Below, piece after piece: positions 44,798 to 52,708 of a stretch of DNA of 64,000 bases. Positions within the stretch are counted from its first letter, which is position 1. The number at the start of each line of letters is the position of its first letter. The DNA is taken from contig NZ_WTYN01000001.1 in assembly GCF_009827535.1 (NCBI RefSeq), positions 1,240,001 to 1,304,000 of the forward strand. Direction: 5' to 3'. The position numbers and the translations under genes were made by a program. The notes beneath the pieces were generated by a model that worked only from the letters and a program-made list of their open reading frames with translations, made no database searches and had not been told where the DNA came from. This DNA is from Qipengyuania oceanensis (GTDB taxonomy: Bacteria; Pseudomonadota; Alphaproteobacteria; Sphingomonadales; Sphingomonadaceae).

Positions 44798-46243
44798 TCA
44801 GGCAGGTCTGCGGGCGAACATCCCGAAACCGGCGATGATGGCGTAGCAGGCGATCGGCAGGACCATCGCCAGGGCAAGGCTGCCCGTGCCGTCGGCCAGC
44901 ACGCCGTACAGCAACGGCACGACCGCGCCGCCGAAGATGGCGACGTTGATGATGCCCGACCCGTCAGCTGCCCGCGGACCCAGCTTCTCGCAAGCGAGCG
45001 AGAAGATGGTCGGGAACATGATCGAGTTCATCAGCCCCACGGCCAAGAGGCTGTAGGCCGCAACGTAGCCGCCGGTCTGGGTGCTGAGGACGATCAGCAC
45101 GATCGCGCCGATCGCATTGAAAGCGAGGATCTTGCCCGGCGAGAAGATCCGCAGAAAATACGAGCCGATGAACCGGCCGACCATGGCCGCGCCCCAGTAC
45201 AGGCTGATCATCCAGCCGACCGCGCTTTCCATGTTCGCGCCGGGCATGCGCGTGGCGATCAACTCGCCCAGCACCCGGTCCTGGGCGAGGTAATTGATCA
45301 TGATCGAGCCGATCGATACCTCCGCCCCGACATAGAGGAAGATGCACAGCGCACCGAAGCTGAAGCGGCTGCGACGCAGCAAGTCGTTGTTGTAGAGCCA
45401 GGCGAAGGGGGCGGCGATGATCAGCAGTACGCCGATCCATGCGTTGACGTAGATGGCAAGCAGCGCGCCCGCCACGATGATCGCCAGGCCGACCAGATAG
45501 CGGCCGTTGGAAACGAATTCGTTCTCACCCATCATCTTGGAATCGTGCGGCAGGCGATTGCGGAACAGCCACACCGCGAGGGCGACGACCGCGATCAGCG
45601 CGGCAACGCCGAGATAGCCCTGCCAGATCGCCTCGCTTTCCGCCTGGCGATAGGCCTGCAGTTCCGCGCCGGAAAGCTGGTCCGCGCTGACTGCGGCGAG
45701 ACTGCCGAGAATGACGATTGCGCCGACCCACGGGAAGACCGTCGTGCCGAGCGAATTGAAGGCCTGCGCGAAGGTCAGCCGGCTATGCGCCGTCTTCTGC
45801 GGACCGAGCAGCGAGATCAGCGGATTCGCCACCACCTGCACGATCACCACGCCGCTGGCGAGGATGAAGAGCGCGAACAGGAAGATCTCGTAAGTCGCCG
45901 TCTGGCTCGCCGGAATGAACAGCAGGCAGCCGACCATCATCGTGAGCAGGCCAGCCACCGCACCGCGCATGTAGCCCAGCTTCTTCACGAGCTTGGCACC
46001 GGGAATGCCGACGATCAGATAGGCGGCGAAGAAGCAGAACTGCACCAGCATCGCCTGCGTGTAATTGAGCGTGAAGAGTTCCTTCAGCTTTGGAATGATC
46101 ACGTCGTTGAGCGAAGTGATGCCGCCGAAGATGAAGAACAGGCCGAAGACGAAGTAGTTGAGGCCGGGCGCCTGGATGCCGGCACCGTCATCTTCGATCG
46201 GCCGTGAATCGGTGCTCGAGGCAACGTCGGGTACAAGGGCCAT
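44798..46243 (-). CDS. Sugar MFS transporter, FHS (FucP / glucose-galactose) family
   Basis: 481 residues, 12 helices, in the family that holds FucP and GluP. Features: FGLFFIFGGITSLNDVIIPKLKEL (helix 1, with the substrate-site Asn), YMRGAVAGLLTMMVGCLLF, QVVANPLISLLGPQKTAHSRL and LMNSIMFPTIFSLACEKLG. A proton-linked sugar importer. It is the last gene of the LacI-MFS-GH3 set, 66 bases from the GH3 stop, and ends at a strong terminator. It appears intact. Confidence 0.88.
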   Translation of the reverse strand: MALVPDVASSTDSRPIEDDGAGIQAPGLNYFVFGLFFIFGGITSLNDVIIPKLKELFTLNYTQAMLVQFCFFAAYLIVGIPGAKLVKKLGYMRGAVAGLLTMMVGCLLFIPASQTATYEIFLFALFILASGVVIVQVVANPLISLLGPQKTAHSRLTFAQAFNSLGTTVFPWVGAIVILGSLAAVSADQLSGAELQAYRQAESEAIWQGYLGVAALIAVVALAVWLFRNRLPHDSKMMGENEFVSNGRYLVGLAIIVAGALLAIYVNAWIGVLLIIAAPFAWLYNNDLLRRSRFSFGALCIFLYVGAEVSIGSIMINYLAQDRVLGELIATRMPGANMESAVGWMISLYWGAAMVGRFIGSYFLRIFSPGKILAFNAIGAIVLIVLSTQTGGYVAAYSLLAVGLMNSIMFPTIFSLACEKLGPRAADGSGIINVAIFGGAVVPLLYGVLADGTGSLALAMVLPIACYAIIAGFGMFARRPA

Positions 46244-46309
46244 AGTCGCTATTCCTCCCAGATGTCGGCAGCGCCTTGGCCTACCAACGAGTTATCCTTG
46301 TCGACCGGC

Positions 46310-48352
46310 TCAGAAAGAGCACTGGGCGCCGTCGGACATTTCCTGTCGCACGATCCGCGCCACCTGCAGCGTCATCGGAGCCGTCGAGGTGAGCGACAGG
46401 CGATCGCCGAGGGTCGGAGCGCATTGTTCGGTTATGATCATCTCGCGCCACCCCTTGCCCGCGCTTAGCGCCAGGTTGCGGGTGATGTCGATCGTGTTTC
46501 CCCCGACCGTCAGCGTGACCTTGCCGGCGGGCTGCGCGGCAAGATTGTAAAGGATGCGATAATCGCCCTTGCCCTGTCCGGCCTGTGCGAGCGACAGCGT
46601 CGCGCCCGGTCCGAAGACGATCTCGCGCGCATCTTCCTGCCGATCCTTGTCGAGGCCCCGCGCGACGATTCCGCCGCCTTCGCCGCGCAGGTTCACGAGG
46701 CGGGTGTCGCCGCCATAGGCAGTGATCCCGCTCGCCAACCGACCGAGATCGTACCACGATGCCGCCGCGCCTTCGCTCAGATAACCGCAGTCTTCCGGCA
46801 GTTTCGCCGCGCCGCTCTTCTGCGCCAGGCCGAGGCCGTAGCCGACCTGGAACAGTGCGCCTTGCGAGCCATTGACCGGCGCTCCGCCACATTCGGCGGG
46901 CCAGCTGAAGGACAGCCTGCCGGTCGCCTCGCGACGGCCGAACAGAATGTCGGAAACGCCTGCGCCCTCGCTGCCCGGCAGCCAGGAGGCGACGAAGGCG
47001 TCGGCCGCGTTCATCTCGCGGTTCATCCACAGGGGGCGGCCGGATAGGAACACCGCAACCGTCGGGATGCCCGCCGCATCGTATTTGCGCAGCAGGTCGA
47101 GACCCTCGGTGTCGGCGAAGACCATCGTCGTCCGGTCGCCGACGAACTCGGCATAGGGTTCCTCACCGAAGACCACGATCGCGACGTCGGGCCTGCCGGA
47201 ATAGGCGCCGTCCGCCGACAGCGTGGCCTTGCCGCCCTGCGCCTTTGCCTCTGCCTCGATCGCCTGCCAGATCGAGGTCGCGCCGGGAAACTTGCCGTCG
47301 TTGTCGAGCTCGGTCCCGCCCTGCCAGGTCAGCGTCCAGCCGCCCGAAGCCTTGGCGATGCTGTCCGCCGCGCTGCCGGCGACGAGCACGTTAGCGCCCG
47401 CCTTGATCGGCAGCACGCCGGTATTCTTGAGAATGACCTGCGACTTCGCGACCGCCTCGCGCGCGATGGCACGATGCCCGGCGCTGCCGAGCTGCGACCA
47501 ATCGCCCGCGTAGGCGCGATCCGAAGGCTTCTTCGCATCGGGGCCGAGCAGGCCGAGCCGGTACTTGGCCCGCAGCACGCGGCCGACGGCCTCGTCCAGC
47601 CGTGCCATCGAGATCGTGCCGTCCTCGACATCTGCGACCATGTTCTCGATCAGCGCCTTCCAGTCGTCGGGCACCATGTAGATGTCGAGCCCGGCGTTGA
47701 TGGCCTGCGGGCAATCCGACACCGTGCAGCCGTCGATCTGGCCATGCGCGTTCCAGTCGCCGACGACCACGCCGGTAAAGCCCATCTCGCCGCGCAGAAC
47801 GTCGGTGAGCAGCGCCTTGTTGCCGTGCATCTTCACGCCGTTGATCGAATTGAAGCTCGCCATGACAAATTCCGTCCCGGCCGCGATTGCCGCCGGATAG
47901 GGATAGGCGTGGATGGCCTTTAGCGCCTCGATGTCGCCGTTGACGTCGCCCTGGTCGACGCCCTGCATGGTGCCGCCGTCGGCGAAGAAATGCTTGGCGG
48001 TCGCCGCGACATGACCCTTGCCGAGAAATTCCGTCGTGCCCTTGCGGCCCTGCAGCCCCTCGATCAGCGCCGCGCCGAGCGGTGCGACGATCCGCGGATC
48101 TTCGGAATAGCTTTCGTAGGTCCGGCCCCAGCGGTCGTCCCGCGCGACGGCGACCGTGGGCGAAAAGTTCCAGTCGATGCCGGTCGCCGCGATCTCCACC
48201 GCGGTTGCCGCGCCGATCCGGCGGAGCAGGTCGGCGTCGCGCGTCGCGCCCAGACCGATATTGTGCGGGAAGATCGCCGCGCCGACGACGTTGGTGTGGC
48301 CGTGGACCGCGTCGGTGCCCCAGATGGTCGGGACGATAGGCTCGCCATCGTC
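46310..48352 (-). pseudogene. Glycoside hydrolase family 3 (beta-glucosidase) lacking its N-terminus
   Basis: About 680 residues of a GH3 enzyme. From DGEPIVPTIWGTDAVHGHTN it aligns well to the catalytic barrel: the catalytic Asp lies in GFTGVVVGDWNAHGQIDGC and the second domain holds PDVAIVVFGEEPYAE. The signal peptide and about 100-150 first residues are missing. No start codon or ribosome site fits; the frame simply runs on, out of register, into the MFS gene upstream. Secreted GH3 glucosidases of this type are usually 800-850 residues. If no start is used, it is a pseudogene; a fused assembly error is another cause. Confidence 0.8.
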
Positions 48353-49509
48353 GCCAGGCCGGCAAGCAGCAGGAACAGGCCGGTAAAGCCGAAAACCGGC
48401 ACGAGGCCGAGCGTCAGCCACGGCATGACGAGCGACGGCGCGGTGTTGGTGAGGTTGAACAGGCCTAGATCGCCTCCACGCACTTCGGGCCTCGGCAGGA
48501 CGCGCAAGGTCTGCGCGGAATGCAGCGCGAGGAAGGTCGAACCCGCGATACCGAAGATGACATATCCCGCGATCGCTCCCGTCAGGCTTTCCGAAATGCC
48601 CATCGCGACCAATCCCAGGGCGACCGCGAAGGCACCGATCGCAAGTGGCAGCATCGGTCGCTCGCGCCGGTCGGCCCAGCGTCCGGCAAGCAGGGCCACG
48701 GGGATCGAGGCGGCCAGCACGAAGGAGAAAAGCGTCGCGGTCCGGTTGTCGCTGAAGCCGGGCTGGATGGAGCGCAGCCAGAGATAGAGGAAGGCGAACA
48801 GCGCCGCTTCGGAAATCTGGACCAGCAGGCGCGCGAGCCACATCTGCTCGACCGGACCGAATGCCCCGCGGCCTCGCCCGGCAGTCTCCGGCTCGACCTT
48901 GCGCGCGCGGGTCAGTTCGGGAAACGGGCGCGGATTGCCGAACACGACCACCGGCAGCACGGCTGCTGCGACCAGCAGGGCCACCAGCCACAGCCGCTCT
49001 TCGGGTGCGGCAAGGCCGGGCAATGTGACCAGCGCCCCGGCCATTGCGCCAAGGGCCGGCGCGACCGGCAGCAGCCCGCCCAGCAAGCCTTTCTGGTGAT
49101 CGGGCACGCAGTCGCCCGCCCAGGCGCTGAGCGGACCGAGCATGAGATTGAGCGCGAACTGCCAGGCAACCACGAGCAGTATGATGGACGGCAAGGTCGT
49201 CACCCTCGGCATCGTCACCAGCAGCAGGCATGAGAGCACCAGGCCGGTGACGATCCACGGACGGCGGCGGCCCGAAAGGTCGCTCAGCCACCCGAACAGG
49301 ATATTGGCGATGCTTGCCGCGATCGCGCCGGAGAAGGCGATGTAGGACAGCCACTCGATGCTCTGCGCCCCGCCGAGGATGGTCACGCGGACCGGCAGAA
49401 GGATCGTCAGGAACGGGACATAGGCGATCGCGCCGCCCGCCCAGGCAAGCGCGTAGAGCAGCAGGAAGCGTGTCGATTGGCGACCGGGCGCGGTCGCTTC
49501 AGCCGACAC
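48340..49509 (-). pseudogene. MFS permease with lost 3' end, running into GH3 out of frame
   Basis: About 388 residues of a 12-helix MFS permease (FGWLSDLSGRRRPWIVTGL, FALNLMLGPLSAWAGD) up to FTGLFLLLAGLATMASL near 48340. Its frame then reads a non-native, arginine/serine-rich tail through the GH3 gene to a stop at 48064. Only the last few residues seem lost, so it may still work. GTG start at 49509, which lies in the 3' end of the LacI gene (11-base overlap). Confidence 0.75.
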
Positions 49510-50557
49510 CGTTTGCGCCGGGCCGGGCAGTCGACGCGCGTTCGACCAGCGTTCCGGAAACGACCACCGGTTCGCTCGGCAGGTCTTTCTTGCCTGCATT
49601 GATGAGCAGTTCGACCGCGCGTGAGATGGTCGCCGCGATCGGCTGGTCGACAGCGGTCAGCGATGGTTCGGTAAAGCGGACGATGGGGGTGTTGTCGAAG
49701 CTGACCAGCGAAAGGTCGGCTGGCACGTCGAGGTTCATCGACCGGGCGACCTCGAGCGTGCCGGTGGCCATCTGGTCGCTGCTGGCGATGATCGCCGTGG
49801 GCCGGTCGGTTTGCTCGAGCAGTTTGCGCGCGGCAACCACGCCGCTTTCGAAGCCGAAGTCGCCCCTTTCGCACAGTCCCTCGGTGGAGAGGCCCGCATC
49901 GTCCATCGTCGCGCGCCAACCGTCGATACGCCAGCCGGCAACGGCGTAATCGGTCGGCCCTGCAATGAAGCCGATCCTGCGGTGGCCGAGGTCGATCAGG
50001 TGCTGCGTCGCCAGGCGGGCGGAGCCTTCGTCGTCCATTGTCATCGCGATGCCCGGCCCCGGCGTGACCGAACCGATCCGCGCGAAGGGAATGCGCGCTT
50101 CGGCCAGCAGCGAGGTGATGAGCGGATTTTCCGAGTGCGGGGGCGTCAGGATGATTCCGTCCGGCTGGAGCGCGGCGATGGCCGCGCGCAGCTCGCACTG
50201 GACGTGGTCGTTATGCGTGTCGACCAGCTCGAAGATCATCCGGTACCCGTGCTCGGCGCATTTGAGCATCCCGCCAAGCAGCATCTGGTCGACCCAGTCG
50301 GTACCCTGGCGCGACTGCCAGTCGGCGATGGTGCGCTCGCGGTCGTTGAGCGCGAGGATCAGGTAGGAGCGCGAGCCGCTCATCCGCTGGGCCGCGATCG
50401 ACGGCACGTAGCCGAGCTTGTCGATCGATGCCTGCACCCGCTCCTTCATCTCGGGCCGGACATTGGGCTCGTTGTTGATGACGCGGCTGACCGTCTGCAG
50501 CGACACACCTGCATCGGCAGCGACATGCTTGATCGTTACTGATTGGCGCCGACGGCC
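49499..50557 (-). CDS. LacI-family transcription regulator
   Basis: 352 residues. Helix-turn-helix VTIKHVAADAGVSLQTVSRV and hinge helix NNEPNVRPEMKERVQ are standard LacI; the C-terminal domain is a periplasmic-binding-protein-like sugar sensor. It leads the MFS-GH3-FHS genes on the same strand and likely represses them. ATG at 50557. The gap 50588-50715 holds an inverted repeat (arms GCGGCTT and AAGCCGC at about 50602-50617) and a weak hairpin, whose role is open. Confidence 0.9.
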   Translation of the reverse strand, partial: GRRRQSVTIKHVAADAGVSLQTVSRVINNEPNVRPEMKERVQASIDKLGYVPSIAAQRMSGSRSYLILALNDRERTIADWQSRQGTDWVDQMLLGGMLKCAEHGYRMIFELVDTHNDHVQCELRAAIAALQPDGIILTPPHSENPLITSLLAEARIPFARIGSVTPGPGIAMTMDDEGSARLATQHLIDLGHRRIGFIAGPTDYAVAGWRIDGWRATMDDAGLSTEGLCERGDFGFESGVVAARKLLEQTDRPTAIIASSDQMATGTLEVARSMNLDVPADLSLVSFDNTPIVRFTEPSLTAVDQPIAATISRAVELLINAGKKDLPSEPVVVSGTLVERASTARPGANGVG

Positions 50558-50715
50558 CATCGTCCAAAATCCCCTGGCCCTGCCCACTGCCCCGAAGTCT
50601 CGCGGCTTTCAAGCCGCAAGGGGGCGTGTCGCTCGCGGCACGAAGCAGGAGGGCTCCGGGATTGTCGTCCCGAAGCCCCCTGTGGTTCGCATCCGTTTGC
50701 GGCGGGCGTTTCCGC

Positions 50716-52389
50716 CTAGAAATTGAACCGCGCGAGGAAGGTGTAGCGCCGGTCGTTGCGGAAGGCCGCGCTGAGGACGCGGGTTCCGTCGTAGTCGATG
50801 ACCGTCGACAGCTTGGTCACCTGGTCGAGCAGGTTCACGCCCTGGACGCCGAGCTTGAGATGGTCGTTGACCGTGTAGAACAGCGACGCATCGAGCTGGC
50901 CGCCGGATTCCTGGAACGTCGGCGAGAACGGGAACAGGTCGTCGCGCGGAGTGACCAGGAAGCGGCTGCGCCAGTTGTATACGGCACGTGCCGAGATCGG
51001 TCCGCGTTCGTAAAACACGGTCGCGTTGACGGTATGCTTCGAGGTACCCGAATTCGGCACTTCGCCCGTGAAGGCACCGCCGTTGAGCGGGCCGCCCGAC
51101 GAATTGACCGACGGCGAACCGATGTCGGAGATGTCGGGCGTGACGAAGTCCGACGCATCGACGTAGGTGTACGACAGCTGGGTTCCCAGTCCGCTGAGCA
51201 GTCCCGGCAGGAAGTCGTAGACCTGCTGGTAAGCCAGCTCGAAACCCTTGAGCGTGCCGTCGAGGTCGTTGGCCGGACCGTTGATGATGACGTCCTGCGA
51301 CCCGCCGCTCGGGGCGGTATAGTTCACCAGGCCGGTACCGGTCTGGATGATCCCCGTGATGTCCTTCAGGAAGAAGGCCGCGGTGATCGAGCCGACGTCG
51401 TCGAAGTACCATTCGGCGCTCAGATCGTAATTCCACGACTTGATCGGTCGCAGGTTGCGATTGCCGGTGCGGATCGAAAGCGGCGGTCCGCTGTCGACGC
51501 GACCGCTGAAACCGAGCACGCCGCCGGCATTGAACAGATTGAGATCGGGCCGCGAGATCGCCTTGGAAACGGCACCGCGCAGCACCAGTCCGCTGCCGTT
51601 GTCGAGGCGGATGTTGAATGCGGGCAGCCAGTGATCGAACGTGATGTCGCGCCGGTCGGGGATCAGCTCGCCGGTGTAGAGCGAGGCGAATTCCGTCAGG
51701 CGGTCACCGGTCAGCTGACAGTACAGGATCTGCGGTGCATAGCCGCCATCCGGCGCACCCGGGACTGGCGGAGGACAGGAATCGGTGACCTCCGATACCT
51801 GGACCACGCCGTCGCCGTTGCCGCCGCCGACCTGGACGCCGTTCTCGTCGAAAACCGGATCGTCGAACTGCCCCGGATCGGGGAAGGCGATGAGCGCGTC
51901 GTTCTTGACCTTGGTCTCGACGTAACGCAGCCCGATGTTGCCGGTGATCGACCAGCCGCTGTCCATATCGATGCCATAATCGAGCCGCGCATAGGCCGCG
52001 TTGGTGATCTCGGTCACATCCGAGATTTCCGATGGGCAGTACGGATCGCACAGCACCTGGCGCCCGTCGAGCAAGGTGCGCGTACGACCGTTGACGCCGA
52101 GATTGCCCGCCTCGGGGGTCTGGCTGAAGGTGGTCAGTTCATCCCATTGCTGATCGGTAACGCCGTTCAGGTAATCCTGCAGGAAGTCGTCGCCGCCGTA
52201 GAAATAAGTGGCGCCGCCCGGGATCGGGGTGTTCGCTTCGCCGCGCTGGAAATTGTCGCCGAAGGGGGCGCGAACCTGCGAGTAGGCCGGGAATTCGTCG
52301 GCATAGGCACCGCCGGCAATGGCGAATTCCTGGTCCGGCAGACCGGTGTAGAACCGACCCGGCTTGAAGCCCGACCAGTCTGCGACCGA
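50716..52389 (-). pseudogene. TonB-dependent receptor, C-terminal half only
   Basis: About 558 residues of a TonB-dependent outer-membrane receptor of the Caulobacter/Sphingomonas sugar type. It has the barrel strands (WSITGNIGLRYVETKVKND, LRPIKSWNYDLSAEWYF) and the C-terminal F (RFNF) for barrel assembly. The TonB box, plug and first strands, about 350-450 residues, are absent. The frame starts at a junction near 52385; further on it meets TAG at 52414-52416. So there is no start or signal peptide. It sits before the LacI gene, same strand. Confidence 0.82.
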
Positions 52390-52708
52390 GCGTGACGATT
52401 CGGATTTCTGGAACTACTGCCGGACGATGGAGGTGCCCGATACGCTGCGCGAGAAGATCGAGATCTTTCAGGCCAACGGGCAGGTCTTCCGCGAAGAGGA
52501 CGAGCTGTTCACCGAGACGAGCTGGGCCGCGGTGATGATGGGCCAGCGCATTCCGATGAAGGGCCACAACCCAATGGCCGACACCTTCGACCCGGGCGAG
52601 ATTCGCCAGGAAGTCGACGAGATGGAAAAATCGATCCGCTACCTCGTGCAGCAGATGCCGCTGCACGGCCAGTACGTGCAGAAATACTGTCCGGCCGGCA
52701 CGCTCTGA
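52384..52708 (+). pseudogene. Tryptophan halogenase family, C-terminal fragment
   Basis: Only about the last 108 residues: ATERDDSDFWNYCRTMEVPDTL, then EKIEIFQANGQVF and ETSWAAVMMGQRIPMKGHNP, which match the end of the flavin-dependent tryptophan halogenase family found next to TonB receptors in sugar loci (about 500 residues whole). The rest of the gene is missing. An ATG at 52364 lies in the TonB sequence and does not belong to the family. It points away from the truncated TonB gene, both N-termini meeting at one junction. Confidence 0.8.

Follow-up and report, generated by a model that had tools for sequence, protein, structure and literature searches.

Deletion between short direct repeats is a general mechanism of gene loss in bacteria. 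The locus analyzed here is probably the same in kind, with one copy of a short stretch left at its first junction, and lies in a sugar-uptake cluster of the Erythrobacteraceae. The glycoside hydrolase family 3 (GH3) enzyme of this cluster belongs with the ExoP-like exo-1,3/1,4-beta-glucanases (PDB 3usz, 3ut0, and 3rrx): the intact orthologue L049 matches 3usz across residues 37–674 (E 1.9e-199). Among the literature titles and abstract openings examined, none treated this locus.

Across relatives, the order LacI–MFS–GH3 was seen in 24 of 26 named loci with DNA reaching upstream of GH3, and a TonB match lay ahead of the cluster in 20/27 (flanks limited). A GluP-type permease gene came next after GH3 in 18 of the 25 named loci with enough downstream DNA. 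Among the longer stretches fetched, all five carried halogenase, TonB, LacI, MFS, and GH3 genes together, while one of the five had the GluP gene after GH3; in two (L144 and L146), additional frames stand between TonB and LacI. Based on these counts (24/26, 18/25, and 20/27), the cluster is common but not uniform among Erythrobacteraceae relatives in the sequences compared. In full, the cluster runs from a divergent tryptophan halogenase through TonB receptor, LacI regulator, and MFS permease to the secreted GH3, with a GluP-type permease added in many relatives.

The locus in Qipengyuania oceanensis

We analyzed a 64,000-nt stretch of Q. oceanensis DNA (hereafter the window; GCF_009827535.1, contig NZ_WTYN01000001.1, positions 1,240,001–1,304,000 of the forward strand). 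The genome is 2.87 Mb in 14 contigs with a completeness score of 100%, and is the sole member of its genus among the genomes compared. In the window, the halogenase, TonB, LacI, MFS, and GH3 genes follow one another and point the same way as in the Erythrobacteraceae clusters (L142–L146 and L032–L058), and the minus strand carries, in this order, a TonB remnant, LacI, MFS, the GH3 frame, and a GluP-type permease 89% identical to that of L047. In contrast to those clusters, that of the window has lost parts of four of its six genes to two deletions (Table 1). The comparison makes it highly probable that the sugar-uptake cluster of the Erythrobacteraceae has been inactivated here by these two events. 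This is a case of ordinary gene loss, wider than the preliminary description of the DNA had it, i.e., two deletions and four damaged neighboring genes within one cluster.

Table 1 Features of the sugar-uptake cluster in the window.
Feature	Position	Strand	Description
GluP/FucP-type glucose/galactose MFS permease, complete	44798..46243	-	TIGR01272 248.3 bits (cut-off 202.55)
GH3 remnant (ExoP-like exo-beta-glucanase)	46310..48349	-	PF00933 match from profile position 63; remaining frame open
Junction 1	48338..48350		13 bases compatible with MFS tail and GH3 frame; deletion endpoint, ~449–496 bp
MFS permease	48340..49509	-	PF07690 match; complete but for last ~7–13 residues; stop at 48064
LacI-family regulator, complete	49499..50587	-	
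TonB-dependent receptor remnant	50716..52374	-	C-terminal ~550 residues; without signal, plug, and first barrel part
Junction 2	52374..52382		TonB receptor joined to halogenase; ~3.0–3.2 kb absent
Tryptophan-halogenase remnant	52376..52708	+	C-terminal ~108 of ~505 residues

Junction between the permease and the glucosidase

At junction 1, the frame of the MFS permease meets the GH3 frame on the minus strand, as previously claimed. Read in the MFS frame, the minus strand gives FGFTGLFLLLAGLATMASL, where ...LAGLATMASL is followed by an out-of-frame run to the stop; read in the GH3 frame, it gives DGEPIVPTIWGTDAVHGH, from where this frame is family-like. The MFS frame probably starts at a GTG at 49509, overlapping the LacI stop. 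The preliminary description had counted 15 shared bases (48338–48352); the common stretch is at most 13. The leading D of “DDGEP” does not fit GH3, this residue being P in 19 and E in 2 of the 21 relatives examined.

The evidence for a deletion comes from the relatives. We measured how far apart two conserved motifs, one in MFS and one in GH3, lie in 21 chosen loci, and then repeated the measurement over all 27 named loci (L032–L058), of which L052 (contig end) and L055 and L057 (upstream MFS motif absent) were not measurable. In all 24 others this distance exceeded that of the window, by 449–496 bases (median 460), and both genes were whole, so that the comparison with related Erythrobacteraceae proposed earlier bears out the lesion. 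A search of the Q. oceanensis genome with 741 bases of L032 DNA, from the end of MFS to inside GH3, gave two matches and no others at E ≤ 0.001. The matched pieces (23–157 and 621–740 of the query) adjoin in the window and both use the 13 bases at 48338–48350, while the 463 query bases between them are absent. Within the 40 of 93 first-look candidates that were scored in this search of the 14 contigs (E ≤ 0.001), there was no other copy of the missing DNA. Overall, ~0.46 kb is gone, and the earlier list of what it held, i.e., the end of the permease, the spacer, and the GH3 signal peptide with the first residues, is correct, GH3 having lost ~112–130 N-terminal residues that include the signal peptide and the start of the catalytic barrel (as derived from 36 rows with a start callable beside a lipobox-like motif).

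By this comparison, a first deletion of ~0.46 kb fused the end of MFS to the interior of GH3 at no more than 13 shared bases. The suggestion that the two genes were joined at a short repeat fits these shared bases, but a repeat at both ends, as the deletion-at-repeat pattern would have it, was seen in none of 24 relatives. Since L056 alone among the 24 relatives has the exact 13 bases on the GH3 side (1/24) and no relative has them on the MFS side (0/24), the repeat is plausible, not demonstrated, and it is the alignment with relatives, not the repeat, that demonstrates junction 1. Exact 13-base direct repeats 300–700 bases apart form 8 pairs within the 64 kb window, hence openings for such deletions are common.

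Junction between the receptor and the halogenase

A second junction, absent from the preliminary description, lies ~4 kb from the first, within 52368–52390. The TonB remnant matches residues 590–1127 of a 1127-aa relative (the L143 protein), with the match ending at 52374, and the halogenase remnant, on the opposite strand, matches residues 397–504 of 506 of its L143 counterpart from 52376. The receptor is therefore without its first half and the halogenase without its first four fifths. Profile matches agree with these boundaries: TIGR01782 covers positions 470–868 of 868 on the TonB remnant and, at 302.4 bits, stays below its cut-off of 310, the plug and a whole barrel being missing, while PF04820 covers positions 388–457 of 458 on the halogenase remnant, whose absent N-terminal part is presumably the FAD-binding one.

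In the five relatives fetched, halogenase and TonB genes were divergent and far longer without exception, and 3011–3208 bases separated the same two points (for L142 and L146, this required extrapolating the TonB edge over 20 residues). A protein search of the Q. oceanensis genome found no other part of the TonB receptor or the halogenase, and one further halogenase match, which was weak (E 3e-4, 34% identity). By this comparison, a second deletion of ~3.1 kb took away the 5′ ends of both genes, and the outer-membrane receptor of this cluster would have been lost with them. Junction 2 shares few bases, if any; we nevertheless regard both deletions as having most likely arisen between short shared stretches.

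Gene histories and the origin of the junctions

Gene trees across the interval 44798–48349 give a mosaic, in which the nearest relatives of GH3 and GluP differ, each with strong support. The GH3 tree places the window with L032, L049, and L056 (99), and joining it to L047/L048 instead is rejected (p-AU 9e-45); the GluP tree places it with L047 and L048 (99), and joining it to L049 instead is rejected (p-AU 0.01). All three groupings tried were rejected for MFS (p-AU 0.009–0.037), and for LacI the three groupings tried gave p-AU 0.045–0.078; in each case, the groups tested were picked after the trees had been seen. Genes of this cluster thus seem, from their trees, to have moved between lineages.

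The same trees raise the question of whether GH3 was imported as a foreign fragment that lacked its 5′ end and recombined homologously on one side and illegitimately at junction 1, which would then be an import boundary. The opposite placements of GH3 and GluP, with the alternative groupings rejected (if for groups chosen post hoc), would fit such an import. However, L049 falls into the same GH3 group with its junction intact and its MFS grouped elsewhere, i.e., a mosaic needs no truncated import, the window MFS falls outside all three groups tested, which leaves a switch exactly at junction 1 unproven, and junction 2 requires a deletion regardless. Because L049 shares the GH3 grouping and is intact, we do not favor an import and consider it unlikely. 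On this unlikely reading, junction 1 would border on a GH3 allele of foreign origin, homologous at one end and attached over a few bases at the other, whose acquisition destroyed the gene itself, and clusters of this kind would be mosaics with a separate history for each gene.

Slightly less probable still is an assembly artefact, in which sequence was joined over short repeats and both regions are whole in the strain. Both junctions are known from a single assembly, of the one genome of its genus, as an artefact would allow. Yet the shared stretches, at 13 bases or fewer, are below the usual assembly words, which are longer than 13 bases, the missing parts were found on none of the 14 contigs that make up this genome, scored as 100% complete, and two such errors within one cluster would be required. 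Two deletions thus remain the preferred reading of both junctions.

State and age of the remnants

If two deletions account for the junctions, the genes they touched differ in how much they retain. The PF00933 catalytic barrel of GH3 is incomplete, with only profile positions 63–315 of 316 matched and positions 1–62 gone. Relative to the ExoP-like enzymes, the remnant retains the remaining barrel, its C-terminal domain (PF01915, 112.2 bits, cut-off 31) and part of the Exop_C domain (27.1 bits, cut-off 26.1), whereas the signal peptide and, of the L049 residues that align with 3usz, roughly the first 80 are missing. The window GH3 has no N-terminus, and hence no signal peptide was identified. 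No in-frame ATG, GTG or TTG lies between junction 1 and a GTG at 48199, the first in-frame start codon past the junction; the next ATG is at 47968. Lacking a signal peptide, a start codon near the junction and the first barrel segment, GH3 is probably inactive, not merely unexported. We thus agree with the earlier inference that export was probably lost, which nonetheless understated the harm, as part of the catalytic domain has gone too.

All 53 orthologue rows clear of contig ends retain an open N-terminal frame (55 rows were read; L052 and L133 begin at a contig end and were left out), although these rows do not amount to 53 species, as the two collections overlap with at least 4 identical pairs. 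A QLIQP-type motif is found in the N-terminal part of 49 of the 53; the exceptions (L132, L135, L137, and L139) lack it, yet have open frames that are equally long. A lipobox-like motif, defined by a simple pattern, occurs in 41/53. The preliminary description had held that a related genome with the same short GH3 form and a working start would speak against it; we looked for a relative with that short form and rejected the idea, none being present among the 53 rows.

For the permease, the picture is less clear. Counted in 24 relatives, it has lost ~7–13 residues, the end of its last helix (helix 12), and gained a ~90-residue out-of-frame tail. It may be impaired or, as only the end of the last helix is gone, may still work; the claim that the junction breaks both genes therefore holds for GH3 and is uncertain for the permease. 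In L055 and L057 (2498–2951 in L057), an intact GH3 is found without an MFS gene in front, which means that some relatives can do without the permease. A seeming MFS break in L039 (3327–4506) reflects a stretch of N in the assembly and no lesion.

The frames of GH3 and MFS hold no further stop. Of 242 columns without variation among the other 24 rows, the window GH3 alters 2, compared to 0–7 for single other rows, and the window MFS alters 2/85 invariant columns, compared to 0–7 for the other 22 rows (L039, L052, and L053 were left out of the column counts because of a gap or contig end). A long decay, evaluated for the GH3 and MFS remnants, is supported neither by these counts nor by the branch lengths of the trees. 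Given that what is left of GH3 and MFS remains conserved and carries no further stop, the losses are probably recent relative to the distance between genera.

A remnant conserved like the copies of relatives could also be read as a sign of function, yet a functional re-modelling, in which a short GH3 is translated intracellularly from an internal or re-initiated start in a new role, is very improbable: its 680-codon open frame, without additional lesions and with little change at invariant columns, would suit such a role, but the start-free stretch up to GTG 48199, the loss of the first 62 of 316 catalytic-domain profile positions and the breakage of TonB and halogenase as well all argue against it.

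Consequences for sugar use

Under two deletions, a sugar-uptake cluster would have been caught while being lost stepwise, with the receptor and the exported glucosidase gone and the regulator and the glucose-type permease, which both deletions would have left whole, kept. If this is real, the strain may have shifted from cutting oligoglucans itself to taking up free sugar. Elsewhere in the genome, there is one other GH3-domain match, NagZ-like, and no GH1 match, along with two GH16 matches; a loss of beta-glucoside use is likely from these data, the search having covered GH1 and GH3 among the beta-glucosidase families. A profile search that counts fragments would list a GH3, a TonB receptor and a halogenase at this locus, none of which is whole.

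The loss is easy to read here since related bacteria retain whole genes. In a survey of 199 genomes of the family (own genome included), 28 other genomes had a GH3 match at ≥60% identity, and their open frames spanned 742–944 codons, with one of 653 cut by a contig end. Separately, in L023 (983–2897), from a family genome 86% complete and 7% contaminated, GH3 is split over several matches, reflecting either a pseudogene or sequencing errors.
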